A DNA stretch of 40,017 bases from the NCBI GenBank assembly GCA_004145215.1, contig SEAL01000013.1:1-40017 (forward strand), read 5' to 3'. Source of the stretch: Chloroflexota bacterium (lineage in GTDB: Bacteria; Patescibacteriota; Saccharimonadia; Saccharimonadales; Saccharimonadaceae). Every line of letters begins with the position of its first letter. The first letter of the stretch is position 1. Below, one piece after another: positions 1,646 through 28,780 of this stretch. The translations under genes and the position numbers were made by a program. The notes under the pieces were generated by a model. It worked only from the letters and a program-made list of their open reading frames with translations. It was not told the origin of the DNA and did not search any database.

Positions 1646-2605
1646 ATGGCACGAACGGGACTGACTACCGCGAAAAAGCGATTGCGCGCAACCTATATCC
1701 ACCACATCCTCTGGGGAGGACTGTGTTTGCTGTTACTAGGACTACTAATGGCGGTCTGGTTTCATACCCAGGAATTAAATCGTCAGTCACAACTATTAGA
1801 ACAACGCATCGCGCTGCAGTCACAAGCACCCTGCACGGCAAGGGATTCATGGGAGTCTGATACGACAAAATCCTTTACAATAAATTCAAATGATACTAAT
1901 AGGACTTATTTAGTACATCTGCCAAAAGACTTTAAATCAACGCAGTATTACCCAGCAGTATTATTCTTTCCAGGCAAGGGTGGGTCAGCAAACGATGGTG
2001 AACGCGTATTCAAGCCGAGTGGCGTTCCTGCGATAGCCATATTCCCACAACCAACAATTGGTAAAGACAATGTCTATTCATGGCAGGGGGCGCCGTATTC
2101 TTCGGGGTCAGATGACGTACGGTTTGTCGCAGACATACTAGATCGAATCAGCGGACAGTTATGTGTATCACGATCGCACATCTATGCCGCTGGTATGTCT
2201 AATGGTGGCGGAATGGTGTCGCTACTGTCATGCCAAATGCCCGATAGAATCGCTGCATTCGGTATCGTTGGCGGTGCGTTCTACTATCCAACATCAGACT
2301 GTACGCCAAAAGCGCCTGCGCCAGTCATTAATATCCACGGAGACAAAGACAACACTGTACCGTATAACGGATCGTTGCAGCGGCGTTTGCCAAAGATTGA
2401 CGAATGGGCCGCGTATCGCGCATCAAAAAATGGCTGTAGCGTCCGGCCATACATAGCGTCCACGACAACCAGCATTACTACGACCTGGCAATTTTGTCGT
2501 GATAACGCCACAGTTCAAAATGTAAAACTACTCGGTGTTGGGCATGTATGGATGACAAATGCTACCGAAACAATTTGGAATTTCTTTAGAACACAGTCAC
2601 TATAA
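1646..2605 (+). CDS. Membrane-anchored alpha/beta-hydrolase, PHB depolymerase/feruloyl esterase-like (LpqC family)
   Basis: This is a predicted extracytoplasmic esterase. A basic N-terminus and one hydrophobic helix (about residues 21-39) make a signal anchor, and the catalytic domain follows from about residue 75. The nucleophile elbow is 'GMSNGGG' (Ser185), the acid is probably in 'HGDKDNTVPY' (near Asp235), and the histidine is in 'GVGHVW' (His300), in the order expected for the fold. Cys residues at 63, 173, 196, 219, 264 and 284 suit disulfides outside the membrane. The substrate cannot be read from sequence; a carbohydrate-ester or polyester substrate is possible. The 1646 start is preferred over the out-of-frame ATG at 1642. 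Confidence 0.82.
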   Translation: MARTGLTTAKKRLRATYIHHILWGGLCLLLLGLLMAVWFHTQELNRQSQLLEQRIALQSQAPCTARDSWESDTTKSFTINSNDTNRTYLVHLPKDFKSTQYYPAVLFFPGKGGSANDGERVFKPSGVPAIAIFPQPTIGKDNVYSWQGAPYSSGSDDVRFVADILDRISGQLCVSRSHIYAAGMSNGGGMVSLLSCQMPDRIAAFGIVGGAFYYPTSDCTPKAPAPVINIHGDKDNTVPYNGSLQRRLPKIDEWAAYRASKNGCSVRPYIASTTTSITTTWQFCRDNATVQNVKLLGVGHVWMTNATETIWNFFRTQSL

Positions 2606-2606
2606 C

Positions 2607-2818
2607 GAAAAATCCCCGCGATAAAGCGGGGGGTGGGGTCGAGGTGCCATTCGACACCCCGACCCCATTCCGAGCGCGTCAAAGCGGAGTACTCCACCTT
2701 TGCAGCTGCCTCGCCAAAGTTGCCGAATCGAACAAGAGCGGCAAAACTGCCGAGCCTTACTTTGGTGTCATCACACCTCATCGCAGCAGTCATCCTATTT
2801 TCCAATCTGTCGTAGGTA
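2607..2818 (-). ncRNA. Candidate structured non-coding RNA, about 210 nt
   Basis: Read on the minus strand, this stretch has a promoter (next entry), a chain of hairpins and an intrinsic terminator (CCCCGC-TTTATC-GCGGGG then ATTTTT). Helices in order: GGTGT/ACACC; a closing helix CCAAAGT/ACTTTGG enclosing CGGCA/TGCCG; a nested CGAG/CTCG with CAAAG/CTTTG around GGAGTACTCC; then GGGGTCG/CGACCCC. It ends against the 3' end of the esterase gene, so it is not a leader for a minus-strand gene. The ORF track's 96-aa minus ORF here is likely a shadow. It does not show the signatures I know for tmRNA, SRP RNA or RNase P RNA. Confidence 0.6.
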
Positions 2819-2824
2819 ATTCAA

Positions 2825-2852
2825 ACTATACTCTTTCTATATAGAAAAACAA
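2825..2852 (-). promoter_or_regulatory. Promoter of the candidate ncRNA
   Basis: On the minus strand: TTGTTT (2852-2847), a 16-bp spacer, then TATAGT (2830-2825). Predicted transcription start near 2818. Confidence 0.55.
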
Positions 2853-2933
2853 GTATTTTCCACTATTTTCTAGTAGACTGGTTGACAGGGTGGGTGAACA
2901 TTTCGAGTTTACCCCTAGTACACTGGAGTTGAC

Positions 2934-3734
2934 ATGGTGCATACACCATACGAAGACTTGCTTCGGCTCGTCACCGACAGCGGAGCAATCAAAGCGGACC
3001 GCACTGGAACTGGAACACGAAGTATCTTCGGCCATCAAATGCGATTCGACCTGTCGGAAGGATTTCCGCTGATCACCACAAAAAAGGTTCACACGAAATC
3101 CATCATCTACGAGCTTCTATGGTTCCTGAAAGGGGACTCGAACGTCAAGTGGCTACAGGAGCGTGGCGTCACGATCTGGGATGAATGGGCAGACAAGGAA
3201 AGCGGCGAACTGGGCCCCATTTATGGAGTACAGTGGAGGGCTTGGCCGACGCCGAACGGCGGGTACGTTGATCAAATCAGCCAAGTCTTAAATACGCTGA
3301 AGCAAGATCCGGATTCACGCAGGATGATCGTATCAGCGTGGAACGTGGGAGAAATCCCTCAGATGGCTCTGCCGCCATGCCATGCGTTTTTTCAGTTCTA
3401 CGTGGCTGATGGTAAATTGTCTTGCCAGCTGTACCAGCGCAGCGCCGATCTGTTTTTGGGAGTACCGTTCAACATTGCCAGCTATGCACTGCTGACACAT
3501 ATGATCGCCCAGCAGGTGGGTCTGGGCGTTGGTGACTTCATCTGGGCTGGCGGTGATTGCCACATCTATGACAATCACCGGGACCAGGTCCGTGAACAGC
3601 TGAGTCGCAAGGCATTTGCGTACCCGACACTGGAATTGGCTCCTCGAGACTCGATTTTCGATTACCAGTTCGAGGACGTGAGCATCGTCAACTACCAGCA
3701 TCACCCGGTCATCAAGGCGCCGGTCGCAGTCTAG
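2934..3734 (+). CDS. thyA: Thymidylate synthase
   Basis: Converts dUMP to dTMP with methylenetetrahydrofolate. The 266-aa length is typical. The catalytic cysteine is in '[12 protein letters not shown]' (Cys149), the dUMP-binding region '[20 protein letters not shown]' is intact, and the arginine pair lies in 'DSRRMI'. A GGAG sits 5 nt before the ATG. By eye the gene is richer in G+C and uses CTG and GCC/GCG codons more than its neighbours, so recent transfer is possible. It sits next to folA, which regenerates the folate it oxidises, and near dcd and tmk. Confidence 0.97.
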
Positions 3735-3744
3735 GGACACGCCC

Positions 3745-3785
3745 AGCCCCGGTCAGATTCATGCAAATTGGATTTGGCCGGGGCT
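3745..3785 (+). terminator. Hairpin after thyA, weak terminator
   Basis: AGCCCCGG / CCGGGGCT with a 25-nt loop, just after the thyA stop. The tail (ATTGTACTTT) is only moderately T-rich. The hairpin lies between the convergent ends of thyA and folA and may serve both. Confidence 0.5.
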
Positions 3786-3794
3786 ATTGTACTT

Positions 3795-4286
3795 TCATGA
3801 GCGCATGTACGTTACGAATGAGTACGAAAAATCATTATTATCGTCTGGATCAAAATGCACTCTTGATCCCGGCTGTTCAGACCAGTTATTTTGCAGTTCT
3901 GGAAAATGTGCATCGACGCCTTTAAATTCAGCATGCACTTCAGTTGCATGCACCAGATCAACCAGAGGAACTGATTGCCTATACACTTCGCCGCCGCCAA
4001 TAATAAATGTTTGGCGACCTACTTCAACTGATTCTAAAGCTTGATCGAGTGTATGCGCGACAGAAATTCCCGTATCCTGGATTGCACGCCTCGAAAGTAC
4101 AATGTTTTGTCGATGAGGAAGTGGCCGTCCGATCGATTCATATGTCGCTCGACCCATAATCACTGCAGCTCCTAACGTCAACTCGCGAAAATGCCGCATG
4201 TCCGCTGGCAGCTGGCCAGCCCATGGCAGATCACCTTCGATTCCAACGCCTCGATTCATGTCATATGCTACAATCAACTGATTCAT
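3795..4286 (-). CDS. folA: Dihydrofolate reductase
   Basis: Reduces dihydrofolate, the by-product of ThyA, to tetrahydrofolate with NADPH. The protein starts 'MNQLIVAYDMNRGVG' and is 163 aa, normal for the family. It has 'GDLPW', the substrate-binding acid in 'LPADMRHF', 'GRATYESIGRPLP' and the NADPH-loop 'IIGGGEVY'. The ORF track adds nine residues, but the promoter evidence (extended -10 TGC-TATGAT 6 nt upstream of this Met) places the true start here, on a leaderless mRNA. It is convergent with thyA. Confidence 0.95.
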   Translation of the reverse strand: MNQLIVAYDMNRGVGIEGDLPWAGQLPADMRHFRELTLGAAVIMGRATYESIGRPLPHRQNIVLSRRAIQDTGISVAHTLDQALESVEVGRQTFIIGGGEVYRQSVPLVDLVHATEVHAEFKGVDAHFPELQNNWSEQPGSRVHFDPDDNNDFSYSFVTYMRS

Positions 4287-4292
4287 GAAACT

Positions 4293-4320
4293 ATCATAGC
4301 ATTCATCTTCCATGCTACAA
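4293..4320 (-). promoter_or_regulatory. Leaderless promoter of folA
   Basis: Minus strand: TTGTAG (4320-4315), a 16-bp spacer, then TATGAT (4298-4293) preceded by TGC. Six nt separate the -10 from the ATG. Confidence 0.62.
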
Positions 4321-7042: not shown

Positions 7043-7071
7043 TTGACATTTTTACGATCATTCCCTATAAT
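7043..7071 (+). promoter_or_regulatory. Consensus promoter of the rplJ-rplL operon
   Basis: A perfect TTGACA (7043-7048), 17-bp spacer and TATAAT (7066-7071), the best promoter in the window, as expected for stalk proteins made in multiple copies. The start near 7078 gives a leader of about 190 nt. Confidence 0.92.
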
Positions 7072-7077
7072 TCATTC

Positions 7078-7204
7078 AGACATTACCAGAGACAGTAGCA
7101 GTAACGAGCAATCAATACTTAATTCGCTACCGAGGTGTATATATTCTATACGATAACCTACTAACGTCTTTGGTAATGCGAGCGCCAAAGACGTTTTGTT
7201 TTTC
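7078..7204 (+). ncRNA. L10 leader (ribosomal stalk autoregulatory element)
   Basis: The leader carries the pieces known from L10 leaders: 'GACAGTAGC', an ACTTAAT segment and 'GCTACCGAGG', with GTAGC/GCTAC pairing across the kink-turn region. An intrinsic terminator follows. The established mechanism is L10(L12)n binding its own leader; here the downstream terminator suggests transcriptional attenuation. Confidence 0.8.
7163..7203 (+). terminator. Attenuator terminator in the L10 leader
   Basis: An 11-bp stem AACGTCTTTGG / CCAAAGACGTT, an 11-nt loop, then TTGTTTTT. It lies between the L10 leader and rplJ, so the operon must read through it. Confidence 0.88.
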
Positions 7205-7267
7205 GCTCACATTACCGGTACATTGACAATTCGGTCGAATAATTAAAACAATCAAAGGAGACATTTT

Positions 7268-20934: not shown

Positions 20935-22380
20935 CTATAGCTGCGCTAGATAGTCCGACTCGATAGGAGAGACTTGCACTCGTGCCTTGTTACCCATAAA
21001 TGCCCGTAGAATCTTGTAGGCATCCAGATCAAATGGTAATTCATTCCGCACGAATACTGGATCGAAATCTCCTTGCTGTTGAATGTGTCCTATAATTCGC
21101 CAGTCATCGACGACAAAGCCTTTTGTTACTTGGTCTGGATGAAAGATTTTTTCCTGAACAACAACAGGCGTTTCGTATGGCCACGCTTCAATCTTTTTAT
21201 GTTCAAATGCCTGCATAACACGATGATTGTAGTCAGCAGCAGATTCCTTACCAATACACGCACCGCGACATTTTCCTAGCTGATAGGAAAAACACGCACC
21301 CTTTGATTTTTCTAACCCACACAATTTTGGACATAAATCAAAAGTTTTTACTGTCCGCAGCAGTGACTCTTTTGCCATACCGCGTCTGGTGTACGTCGCC
21401 AGAATTGAATCGTCCAATGATTCTTCGGCAACATCGAGTGTCTGCAGGTCAACATGTACGTATCCTTGGTCATCTTGATGACCCTGAGCGACGATCAGTT
21501 TACTCACCCTACGAAGCTTTCGGTTATACAGCGGCTGCAGCGTTTTAATCAAATGTGATTCTAGCAGTAGCGCCTCTAATTCGCCACCTGTCTGCTGAAA
21601 CCGTATGCCGTGCACATTTTGCGCCATTTTGAATTCTTTGTATTCGGCTGTATCGCGAGTGAAGTGACTCATGACCCGGCGTTTTATATTAACGCTTTTG
21701 CCGATATACACGGGCTGACCGGATTCATCATCAAAAAAATAGACGCCGTGCGTTTCGGGCAAACCATCAATAACATCACGAGAAATATATTTCGGTAGCG
21801 AAGGGTGGCGTAACTGGCGCTGCAGAGCTTCGGCGATGACGTCATATTCGAACGTGTCCTGAACATGTTGCAAAAACTGCCATAACACATGCGCATCATC
21901 GTAGGCACGATGCCTATCGGAAAATACAAATCCGTGCCGCTCGATCAGCGCCGATAATTTGTGACTTTTTTGTTCAGGATATAACGCGCGACTCAGACGA
22001 ACAGTACATAATTGTTTCGGCGCAAAATCAATCCCAACACGTCGAAATTCTTGTTTCAAAAACGAATAATCGAAACGAACATTGTGCGCGACGAAAAGCG
22101 CGCCCTCCATGACTGCATATAGTTCATCCGCAACTTCATGAAACGTCGGCGCTGTCTGGACGTCAGACGTTGTGATACCGGTCAGATTGGTAATAAAGTA
22201 GGGGATTTCTGTGCCAGGATTTATCAGACTCTTGAACTCCTGCGTAATCTGACCGTTTTCAACACGAATCGCCGCCACTTCAATGATATGACCATGCACA
22301 TAGTTCATGCCGTCCGTTTCAACGTCAACAAACACCATTGGCTGGTCTAGCGCTTGGATAGAAACTTTTTCAATCCCCAT
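20935..22380 (-). CDS. DEDDh exonuclease fused to UvrC-type GIY-YIG endonuclease
   Basis: 481 aa. Residues about 14-175 form a DnaQ-like 3'-5' exonuclease: 'VFVDVETDG' (ExoI), 'FVAHNVRFDYSFL' (ExoII) and 'HRAYDDAHVLW' (ExoIII with His). From about 205 a GIY-YIG domain follows: 'ETHGVYFFDDESGQPVYIGKSVNIKRRVMSHF', then a UvrC-like stretch ending with the Cys-rich 'LCGLEKSKGACFSYQLGKCRGAC'. The same fusion is known in Actinobacteria, where it is usually annotated as DEDD exonuclease domain protein. A role in nucleotide-excision-type repair alongside or in place of Cho/UvrC is inferred. Confidence 0.92.
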   Translation of the reverse strand: MGIEKVSIQALDQPMVFVDVETDGMNYVHGHIIEVAAIRVENGQITQEFKSLINPGTEIPYFITNLTGITTSDVQTAPTFHEVADELYAVMEGALFVAHNVRFDYSFLKQEFRRVGIDFAPKQLCTVRLSRALYPEQKSHKLSALIERHGFVFSDRHRAYDDAHVLWQFLQHVQDTFEYDVIAEALQRQLRHPSLPKYISRDVIDGLPETHGVYFFDDESGQPVYIGKSVNIKRRVMSHFTRDTAEYKEFKMAQNVHGIRFQQTGGELEALLLESHLIKTLQPLYNRKLRRVSKLIVAQGHQDDQGYVHVDLQTLDVAEESLDDSILATYTRRGMAKESLLRTVKTFDLCPKLCGLEKSKGACFSYQLGKCRGACIGKESAADYNHRVMQAFEHKKIEAWPYETPVVVQEKIFHPDQVTKGFVVDDWRIIGHIQQQGDFDPVFVRNELPFDLDAYKILRAFMGNKARVQVSPIESDYLAQL

Positions 22381-26568: not shown

Positions 26569-27495
26569 ATGACACAGCTATTTACAAAGCCAAAGCGTTT
26601 TCGTATAACTATACATAATGAAGCAATTACTTGGGATGCACCGCGACTAGCTATGGTAAAACGGACTGGCAATTTGCTGCATGGTCCAGAATTACACCTC
26701 CTGACGCCCCAGTACGATCACACGCGTGAAGACCTGCCGCCTATAGAAAATGTTCCAGTGTTGCGCCACCTGGGTGCACTAGGCATTGATCAATTTCGCC
26801 TAAAACATGGGTTTGCAACACCACTCGACGATAGAGGCTTTGTTGATTCAGATCAATTACTAGAAAAGATATTTGATATTGTCGGTCCGGATTACGTTTG
26901 GCCCGATGGTAATGATATTCATCACCTGCAGTGGGAAGGCGCGGATTATGCGCCTAGTAAATTTGGCGGCAGTACAATTCCGCACGAATTCCGAGAACTC
27001 GCGTTTCACAAGATATATATACCTAGGCAAATGCACAACCTCATACATGCGATGACACCACCGCCCGAAGTGCCGACATACATGGCGATGCGCCAGCGAG
27101 TAAAAGCATACCGTCGTGCGCAGCATTTGTTTAATACGGCAGCAAAGTCAATTCACATGGATTATGCAGAGCAAGTATGCATTCCTCTGCACGGGACGCA
27201 AATGGTACGCATTCCGAAAACACCAGAGTCAAAACAGTGGCGGATAAAAGCCAGCGAAGGCAGAAACATCGAATTAGACGTTTTATTGGATACCTATCTT
27301 CGGTTTACGAGTCGCTATCAAGCTCAATTATCAGCCATATCACTCCATGATCTGGATGGAATATTGGACGAAGCTGCGTTAATGACATTCGGGGAGAGCA
27401 CGTCAGAAGCGCTGGATTACATCAGGTCTGTGCTGCCGATAGAGCGCTCCGAGCATTCTGCACGGCCGCTCGATCAGTTAAAGCGGGCTGTATGA
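26569..27495 (+). CDS. Uncharacterised 308-aa protein with HNH-like pattern
   Basis: No named family. The middle has 'DIHHLQW' (116-122) and, about 35 residues later, 'PRQMHNLIHAM' (152-162): two adjacent histidines, then His-Asn and His, the spacing and residues of a beta-beta-alpha-metal (HNH) motif. A 'TPPPEVPTYMAMRQRVKAYRRAQ' segment follows. No zinc cysteine pairs. Start at 26569 with no SD. The promoter faces that of the TUDOR-like gene within 42 nt. It could be a nuclease or a degenerate metal-binding protein. Confidence 0.7.
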   Translation: MTQLFTKPKRFRITIHNEAITWDAPRLAMVKRTGNLLHGPELHLLTPQYDHTREDLPPIENVPVLRHLGALGIDQFRLKHGFATPLDDRGFVDSDQLLEKIFDIVGPDYVWPDGNDIHHLQWEGADYAPSKFGGSTIPHEFRELAFHKIYIPRQMHNLIHAMTPPPEVPTYMAMRQRVKAYRRAQHLFNTAAKSIHMDYAEQVCIPLHGTQMVRIPKTPESKQWRIKASEGRNIELDVLLDTYLRFTSRYQAQLSAISLHDLDGILDEAALMTFGESTSEALDYIRSVLPIERSEHSARPLDQLKRAV

Positions 27496-27525
27496 AATAC
27501 GCACCGACAAATCGGTGCGTATTTT
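27495..27525 (+). terminator. Intrinsic terminator
   Basis: AAATACGCACCGA / TCGGTGCGTATTT with a CAAA loop, then T-rich. It overlaps the stop codon of the 26569 gene and also sits at the 3' end of the minus-strand Lys-rich ORF. Confidence 0.9.
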
Positions 27526-27527
27526 AT

Positions 27528-27611
27528 TTAGTATTCTTTTACTTTTTTAACTTTTGGTTCAGTTGATTTAGGCTTTTTAGCCTTTATTTGCTGTGATTTG
27601 CCTTTTGCCAT
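27528..27611 (-). CDS. 27-aa lysine-rich protein
   Basis: Below the track cutoff. Reads MAKGKSQQIKAKKPKSTEPKVKKVKEY; 9 of 27 residues are Lys. AGAAAGG lies about 10 nt before the ATG. Its composition recalls the small basic MAKG-type proteins found across bacteria. The 27612-27724 gap beyond it holds only promoters. Confidence 0.5.
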   Translation of the reverse strand: MAKGKSQQIKAKKPKSTEPKVKKVKEY

Positions 27612-27712
27612 GATCTGTAGCCTTTCTAATAAAGTTGTTTTGCTCACGCTGTAAATACTAGTATTTCATGATGACAAAATGATCTCTCCTGTTATCTAGT
27701 ATAGCAAATTGT

Positions 27713-27718
27713 TATACT
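27713..27718 (+). promoter_or_regulatory. Leaderless -10 of the PspC gene
   Basis: TGT-TATACT with 6 nt to the ATG at 27725. Confidence 0.58.
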
Positions 27719-27724
27719 AGATGC

Positions 27725-27952
27725 ATGAAGAGATTATACCGATCCCAAACTGATAAAAAAATTGGCGGCGTTTGCGCCGGTTTAGCAGAATACATCAATA
27801 TCGACCCAACAATTATCCGCGTTATATTCGTTATTTTGCTACTACCTGGCGGATTTCCCGGACTGATTCCGTACGTCCTGCTATGGATAATTGTGCCATT
27901 AAAGCCCGCTTTGGATAAATCTGCTGCAATTGACGCTGACGAAGTAAAATAA
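27725..27952 (+). CDS. PspC-domain membrane protein
   Basis: 75 aa. 'KRLYRSQTDKKIGGVCAGLAEYINIDPTIIRVIFVILLL' is the PspC signature, followed by a helical hairpin ending 'YVLLWIIVPLKP'. Phage-shock-type membrane-stress protein. Leaderless. It is followed at once by a second small membrane protein, probably co-functional. Confidence 0.92.
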   Translation: MKRLYRSQTDKKIGGVCAGLAEYINIDPTIIRVIFVILLLPGGFPGLIPYVLLWIIVPLKPALDKSAAIDADEVK

Positions 27953-27979
27953 ATATAATCGTCATGCTATGATAGCTTT

Positions 27980-28159
27980 ATGGTAACCACAGCAAAAAAC
28001 AAACGAACAAATCAACAACAGACTAACAAGGTACTTTTAACGCTAGCGACACTCGCGTTACTCGTTGTATCGGCATGGGCTCTATCCATGGTATTCGTCC
28101 CTCTGGCGCTGATACCGGTCATAGCGGCAGCGTACGCTATCGTAAAGATTTGGCGCTAA
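27980..28159 (+). CDS. 59-aa two-helix membrane protein
   Basis: One residue below the track cutoff. A polar basic N-terminus (about 1-17) then two hydrophobic helices (about 18-38 and 39-56) ending 'KIWR'. It has its own extended -10 (TGC-TATGAT) 6 nt before the ATG, so it is leaderless. No family recognised. Confidence 0.7.
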   Translation: MVTTAKNKRTNQQQTNKVLLTLATLALLVVSAWALSMVFVPLALIPVIAAAYAIVKIWR

Positions 28160-28162
28160 CAA

Positions 28163-28193
28163 AAAAATACCACCGAATCACGGTGGTATTTTT
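28163..28193 (+). terminator. Bidirectional intrinsic terminator
   Basis: AAAATACCACCG-AATCA-CGGTGGTATTTT. A and T tracts on both sides let it serve both the small membrane gene and the minus-strand FKBP gene. Confidence 0.9.
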
Positions 28194-28208
28194 ACTAGTT
28201 ATGATGGA

Positions 28209-28497
28209 TTAGCTAATCGCCGTCAGCTCGATATCAAAGACCAAGTCTGAATTGGCTGGAATATTCGATGCGGGCGAGCTAGCACCGTAAGCCTGCGCGG
28301 CTGGGATAATCAAACGACGTGTTCCGCCAACCTTCATACCCGGAACACCATCCGTCCAACCCTTGATAACTTGGTTCAAACCAAAGGTGATCGGGTTTCC
28401 AAACGTCACCGGTACCTTCAACAGTATCAATAATCTCTAGTTGGCTGACTGCGCCGCGAGGCTCGAAATCCTGTAATTTTGCTCCTTCTAATGCCAT
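28209..28497 (-). pseudogene. FKBP-type peptidyl-prolyl isomerase with internal deletion and frameshift
   Basis: SD AAAGGAG and an ATG at 28497 begin 'MALEGAKLQDFEPRG..DTVEGTGD', then the frame goes astray. The other frame resumes at 'FGNPITFGLNQVIKGWTDGVPGMKVGGTRRLIIP..', a clear FKBP C-terminal half ending at 28209. About 30 codons including 'HYTG..G..FDSS' of the active site are gone. Both track ORFs here (28209-28430 and 28279-28497) are pieces of this one broken gene. Confidence 0.85.
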
Positions 28498-28616
28498 AAA
28501 TAGCCTCCTTTTGTTCGCATTACTATACCTATTATACGATACTGTGAGAATTATTACGGCGCCAACAACACCGGCTAGCTACTATAAATATAGTTATTAA
28601 TAAACGTGAGGTAATG

Positions 28617-28778
28617 ATGAACGAAGATACAGTCGTATACGAATTTGGTGGCGAAATTTATGAAAACGCGGGGCAATTTTTGGACGCGTTAGGTCACGAA
28701 TATAAAGTCGGCGACAAAGAAGAAGTCGTCACAAAGCTAGAAGATTACGGATTTGATTTAGCTGACATTGGTGTTTAA
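28617..28778 (+). CDS. 53-aa acidic protein
   Basis: Below the track cutoff. SD GAGGT before two consecutive ATGs (28614, 28617). Reads '..VVYEFGGEIYENAGQFLDALGHEYKVGDKEEVVTKLEDYGFDL..'. No family recognised. Two nt before the next gene, so co-translated. Confidence 0.6.
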   Translation: MNEDTVVYEFGGEIYENAGQFLDALGHEYKVGDKEEVVTKLEDYGFDLADIGV

Positions 28779-28780
28779 CT

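Follow-up and report, generated by a model that had tools for sequence, protein, structure and literature searches.

A candidate cis-regulatory hairpin leader ahead of thymidylate synthase genes in Saccharimonadaceae, beside a seemingly lineage-private terminator

Our findings point to a short, conserved leader at the predicted 5' end of the thyA mRNA as the functional RNA of the interval between an esterase-like gene and thyA, and to the minus-strand unit in the same interval as a genus-private by-product terminator. We put the probability of this joint reading at about 60%. The initial annotation had proposed, for positions 2607-2852 on the minus strand, a structured non-coding RNA with its own promoter and terminator. 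We demonstrate here the conservation, position and pairing of the plus-strand leader and infer a regulatory role for it; it is a candidate for a new cis-regulatory RNA acting on thymidylate synthesis.

Saccharibacteria live on other bacteria with approximately 1 Mb of DNA, and gene control in these organisms is very little understood. The genome analysed here is a draft of ~1.1 Mb of Saccharibacteria (TM7) type, and 'the window' denotes the whole stretch of 40,017 nt under analysis. Across the locus the gene order is rplK, rplA, the esterase-like gene, the studied region, thyA, folA (minus strand), a NUDIX gene, a dcd-like and a tmk-like gene, with all names other than those of thyA and the esterase read from translations. 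The closest named relative of the esterase is found in Candidatus Saccharibacteria GW2011_GWC2_44_17. The taxon was deduced from this relative and from a TM7 RNA, lysM-TM7, encoded in the genome, and the family name Saccharimonadaceae was deduced likewise. By window position, the features of the locus are:

1646..2605, plus strand: gene for an esterase-like alpha/beta hydrolase that scores below Pfam cut-offs, flanked by rplA and thyA; a relative adjoins thyA or thyX in other genomes
2607..2631, minus strand: intrinsic terminator CCCCGC-UUUAUC-GCGGGG-AUUUUUC, with six G-C pairs, a 6-nt loop and an AUUUUUC tail; matched by 4 of 2000 shuffles
2634..2667, minus strand: 15-bp GC-rich hairpin with a GAAU loop, immediately before the terminator, from the fold of 2607-2676
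2677..2824, minus strand: putative transcript body, with predicted hairpins at 2681-2700 and 2764-2777 and a long imperfect arm at 2708-2756; not above shuffles
2825..2852, minus strand: promoter-like TTGTTT-16-TATAGT (2852-2847 and 2830-2825), matching the consensus at 8 of 12 positions; chance level
2834..2847, no strand assigned: perfect 14-bp palindrome TTTCTATATAGAAA between two divergent promoter regions; as long in 0.9% of shuffles
2874..2879, plus strand: predicted thyA -10 box TAGACT, in the same place relative to the leader in 20/20 loci
2885..2917, plus strand: conserved thy leader ACAGGGUGGGUGAACAUUUCGAGUUUACCCCUA, defined from aligned relatives, with a hairpin at 2892-2914 (8 bp, 7-nt loop)
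2934..3734, plus strand: thyA, thymidylate synthase (PF00303, E 1.8e-122)
3795-4313, minus strand: folA

The convergent gap between thyA and folA (3745-3785) contains a 17-bp hairpin whose T-tract is weak on the plus strand and absent on the minus strand. Further along the window, the known L10_leader element (RF00557, 55.3 bits) lies at 7068-7209 (+) before rplJ, with a terminator-like hairpin inside it (7163-7195), and a minus-strand protein at 20935-22380, judged from its translation only, seemingly joins a DNA polymerase III epsilon-like exonuclease to a UvrC-like GIY-YIG part. In the window's longest gap without an ORF of at least 90 aa (27495-28780) there are bidirectional terminator-like hairpins at 28164-28192, and the sequence near 27656 folds stably. 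ARAGORN detected neither tRNA nor tmRNA genes in the window.

Distribution and structure of the thy leader

The leader was first seen in a family-wide DNA search, as repeated matches just outside the range originally reported. At E <= 2e-4, a model built from 15 instances located it in 19 of the 394 family genomes, with one copy in each and every copy before thyA or thyX. A twentieth genome (G031, thyX, E 4e-4) and a twenty-first (G060, thyA, E 0.0024) also fit the model, and two further weak matches (L092 and L094) do not stand before either gene. Beyond the family, no instance was found in a class sample of 295 genomes or a phylum sample of 192, and the leader matched nothing in Rfam. We found no description of it in the largely open-access literature covered on thymidylate synthase riboswitches, orphan riboswitches, and Saccharibacteria riboswitches and noncoding RNA.

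Our alignment comprises 20 Saccharimonadaceae loci, with G242 left out as near-identical to G248. In all 20 the leader has a fixed orientation and stands before either thyA (PF00303) or thyX (PF02511), two unrelated genes, and every instance lies approximately 30-50 nt ahead of the thymidylate synthase start codon. The Thy1 domain (PF02511) was confirmed by Pfam at eight of the nine thyX loci; PF00303 was confirmed for the window thyA, for one other gene tested directly and for the ThyA genes of G005, G040 and G060, with the remaining thyA calls resting on the DRTGTGT signature in translations. In G005 the leader precedes a thyX remnant that lacks a Pfam match, and not the ThyA gene itself. 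The element is not obligatory, being carried by four of 30 ThyA loci of relatives when the G005 copy is counted.

At about half of the loci the leader-bearing thymidylate synthase gene directly follows rplA. This slot, with or without the esterase (1646-3734 in the window; also L025-L045 and L131-L134), is filled by thyA in some genomes and by thyX in others, and in G005 by a thyX remnant and then thyA. Isofunctional enzymes are thus swapped at one locus.

The consensus, AGGGUGGGUGAACAUUNNGAGUUUACCC, consists of a conserved single-stranded AGGGUG followed by a stem of 8 bp whose loop measures 7 nt (5 nt in G031). Pairing is retained in 98.1% of 160 stem cells, and sliding the pairing partner lowers this value to 30-60%. 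The fourth pair changes on both sides, from U-A to C-G, in G154, G215 and G060, and five stem pairs show compatible one-sided changes. None of 500 shuffles reached the covariation score of the leader, in an alignment of related sequences whose double-sided change is confined to one base pair. At the sequence level, this one doubly changed pair, seen in three genomes, supports pairing of the leader as RNA. Furthermore, all 27 of the G.U cells have their G on the 5' side, an arrangement that would be stable in no RNA but the sense one and that breaks the symmetry of a DNA palindrome. Taken singly, the window leader folds no better than its shuffles.

A -10-like box (TATAAT, or four to five of its six letters) ends 3-7 nt before the aligned leader start at 20/20 loci. 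The leader should therefore begin at the first transcribed bases, which is the start that we predict.

The minus-strand unit between the esterase and thyA

The intrinsic terminator with a U tract that had been reported here is present, exceeds chance and is strand-specific. Its hairpin (2614-2631) sits just beyond the stop codon of the opposite-strand esterase, and its U-tract occurs in the minus direction only. The 3' 70 nt (2607-2676), in which it is joined by the 15-bp hairpin, form the sole part of the region to fold beyond chance (z -6.25), and it is this signal that accounts for the z of -4.4 of the whole 246 nt (2607-2852).

As background, we scanned a sample of 20 stretches (240 kb) from this genome, which contained 54 gaps between genes with a length of 150 nt or more. 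Approximately 5% of 150-nt intergenic segments reach z < -5.2, many of them with very long terminator or tRNA hairpins. Long intergenic hairpins are common in this genome, so that a z of around -6 is not rare. Indeed, the same build of a long hairpin without a U-tract followed by a short U-tract hairpin is found after a gene end near position 5024 of L056, and the 3' end of the unit thus resembles an ordinary terminator arrangement of the genome. Counts of orphan terminators from the sampled stretches were too noisy to yield odds. With a real, strand-specific terminator and no end of a minus-strand gene close to it, a minus-strand transcript ending at ~2607-2613 is plausible.

The initial annotation had described a complete transcription unit, and of this the terminator stands beyond chance; the promoter reads as written, but its 8/12 score is at chance level, being equalled or beaten in 799 of 1000 shuffles (80%). 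At a threshold of 9/12 the scan returned no such promoter. The -35 region inferred for thyA (~2851-2856) overlaps the TTGTTT of the supposed minus-strand promoter, so this AT-rich sequence would be, at least in part, promoter region of thyA. The 14-bp palindrome lies between the minus-strand -35 and -10 hexamers and is a possible operator. As a separate candidate for a promoter signature, we considered the 20-mer AATACTTGTTTTTCTATATA (window 2840-2862), which recurs exactly in another genus (L034, 1498-1520) and near-exactly at L040 1505; three instances were too few and the candidate was set aside.

Of the proposed chain of helices, several hairpins do exist, but the body (2677-2830) folds like shuffled sequence, with a z of -0.67 and 55 of 200 dinucleotide shuffles folding equally well or better; its best-looking 101-nt piece reaches z -2.0. 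The multiloop said to be closed by CCAAAGT/ACTTTGG gives way to the long imperfect arm, which outcompetes it in both the full and the 101-nt folds. The view that the unit contains no credible ORF was borne out by the minus frame spanning it (2515-2805), which has no Pfam or PHROGs match and runs through the terminator. Neither plus frame of the region is credible as an ORF.

In Rfam, the search proposed at the outset, region 2607-2852 fits no family, SRP and 6S included; nothing reached the gathering score, and the best match below threshold was a microRNA (E 0.14). The unit is also not tmRNA or RNase P, as had been stated, both being encoded elsewhere in the genome. Searches by blastn of 394 family genomes and 100 relatives produced no homologue of the RNA part, only short chance-level matches that fall mostly within coding genes. 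A covariance model of the single sequence (2677-2777), run against 101 genomes, recovered itself and one weak partial match (G028, E 0.012) at the same place as a blastn alignment. Phages, plasmids and IMG/VR patterns yielded nothing informative for the unit; a 16-nt hairpin pattern was present in 32 IMG/VR contigs, which is about the chance expectation for 16 bases in such a collection. Where a related esterase is present, as in the four relatives G046, G057, G170 and G162, the unit is missing, and a short gap leads to thyA or thyX. With all of the compared genomes belonging to other genera of the family or to wider groups, and none to the same genus, region 2607-2852 looks, by sequence comparison, like an addition private to the lineage.

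Alternative readings of the terminator

We think it most likely that the unit is a divergent transcript, private to the lineage, which a strong terminator brings to an end. A genus-private stretch of ~230-270 nt between the esterase and thyA would end in the long hairpin plus the short U-tract hairpin, and the terminator would most likely serve to stop divergent or antisense transcripts that set out from the promoter region of thyA, so that they do not run on antisense to the esterase and rplA. Any RNA from the unit would then be a short non-coding by-product, or a private sRNA with no conserved fold. Against this reading, a terminator that is specific to one strand and has no minus-strand gene close by implies some transcript, folA lacks a U-tract terminator of its own so that long read-through may also be what ends here, and absence from other genera limits a young functional ncRNA only a little. 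Such a molecule, a recently evolved, genus-private structured sRNA (~200 nt) served by its own promoter and terminator, would draw support from the real terminator and 15-bp hairpin, from the lack of an ORF and the strand-specific U-tract, and from the palindrome between the -35 and -10 hexamers. We nevertheless judge it unlikely: the body is unstructured relative to shuffles, the promoter is at chance, other genera hold no homologue, same-order relatives lack the unit and strong hairpins are frequent in the genome. The structured ncRNA as reported is not upheld by these results and, being private with an unsupported fold, would be of little importance; the neighbouring leader would carry more weight.

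At a lower probability, the unit may instead be what is left of a small protein gene in divergent orientation, with its promoter region and terminator alone surviving here. A leader-bearing thyA or thyX is divergent from a short uncharacterised gene in G104, G145, G157 and G235, and divergent minus-strand ORFs lie upstream of the leader in L023, L024, L028 and L031. The L031 protein gave one weak tblastn match to the window minus frame, but with four queries its E of 0.094 falls short of significance; a search of the genome with a small profile was empty, and the lack of Pfam and PHROGs matches to the spanning frame also weighs against a lost gene. The divergent small genes of L023 and L028 have related products, 41% identical to each other and of no clear family. 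Most doubtful of all is that the terminator serves folA, by read-through that would pass thyA in the antisense direction. No minus-strand U-tract accompanies the hairpin in the thyA-folA gap, and the next minus-strand U-tract terminator is the one at 2614; however, an untranslated tail of 1.2 kb would be unusual, and the intervening hairpin is large and may suffice.

A possible regulatory role and comparison with known systems

Our preferred reading of the plus strand is that the opening ~33 nt of the thyA transcript would fold as a hairpin leader, through which a common signal would most likely control how thymidylate synthase is made. The enzymes ThyA and ThyX are not related to each other. 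With the leader common to both, the binding of an enzyme to its own mRNA is therefore unlikely as a joint mechanism. What remains would be a metabolite-sensing RNA or a common RNA-binding protein, with a DNA operator as the less likely option. An operator in the form of an inverted repeat is disfavoured by halves that differ consistently, by the uniformly 5' G of the 27 G.U cells, by a loop of varying length and by the fixed orientation.

It is tempting to see in the leader an undescribed class of Saccharimonadaceae RNA, and we regard the odds as evenly poised that this 5'-terminal element of ~33 nt, AGGGUG plus hairpin, controls the synthesis of ThyA or ThyX through a common metabolite (dTMP/dTTP, dUMP or folate) or protein. 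One small RNA common to two non-homologous isofunctional enzymes would imply control by the state of the pathway and not by the enzyme.

The terminator of the minus-strand unit shares its GC stem, short loop, U-tract and strand specificity with intrinsic (Rho-independent) terminators that have an upstream stabilising hairpin; in contrast to a typical intrinsic terminator, no recognised gene precedes it on the same strand. In Pelagibacter, thyX adjoins tmRNA, an arrangement unrelated to the thy leader (PMC2704228). The lysM-TM7 RNA (RF03005), an established cis-regulatory element of TM7 with one copy in the same genome, resembles the thy leader in being restricted to Saccharibacteria. It is, however, a different family of 138 nt, to which the leader of ~33 nt shows no match.

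The preQ1 and THF riboswitch classes are short structured leaders before pathway genes, and the THF classes act in folate metabolism. The thy leader is likewise a short structured leader ahead of a pathway gene; it differs from them in having no Rfam match and no assigned ligand, in consisting of one hairpin plus the single-stranded AGGGUG, and in its predicted position, right at the start of the mRNA. In humans, thymidylate synthase mRNA from TYMS is subject to autoregulation. The thy leader would similarly be an RNA element within a thymidylate synthase mRNA but, unlike that of TYMS, it is common to thyA and the unrelated thyX.
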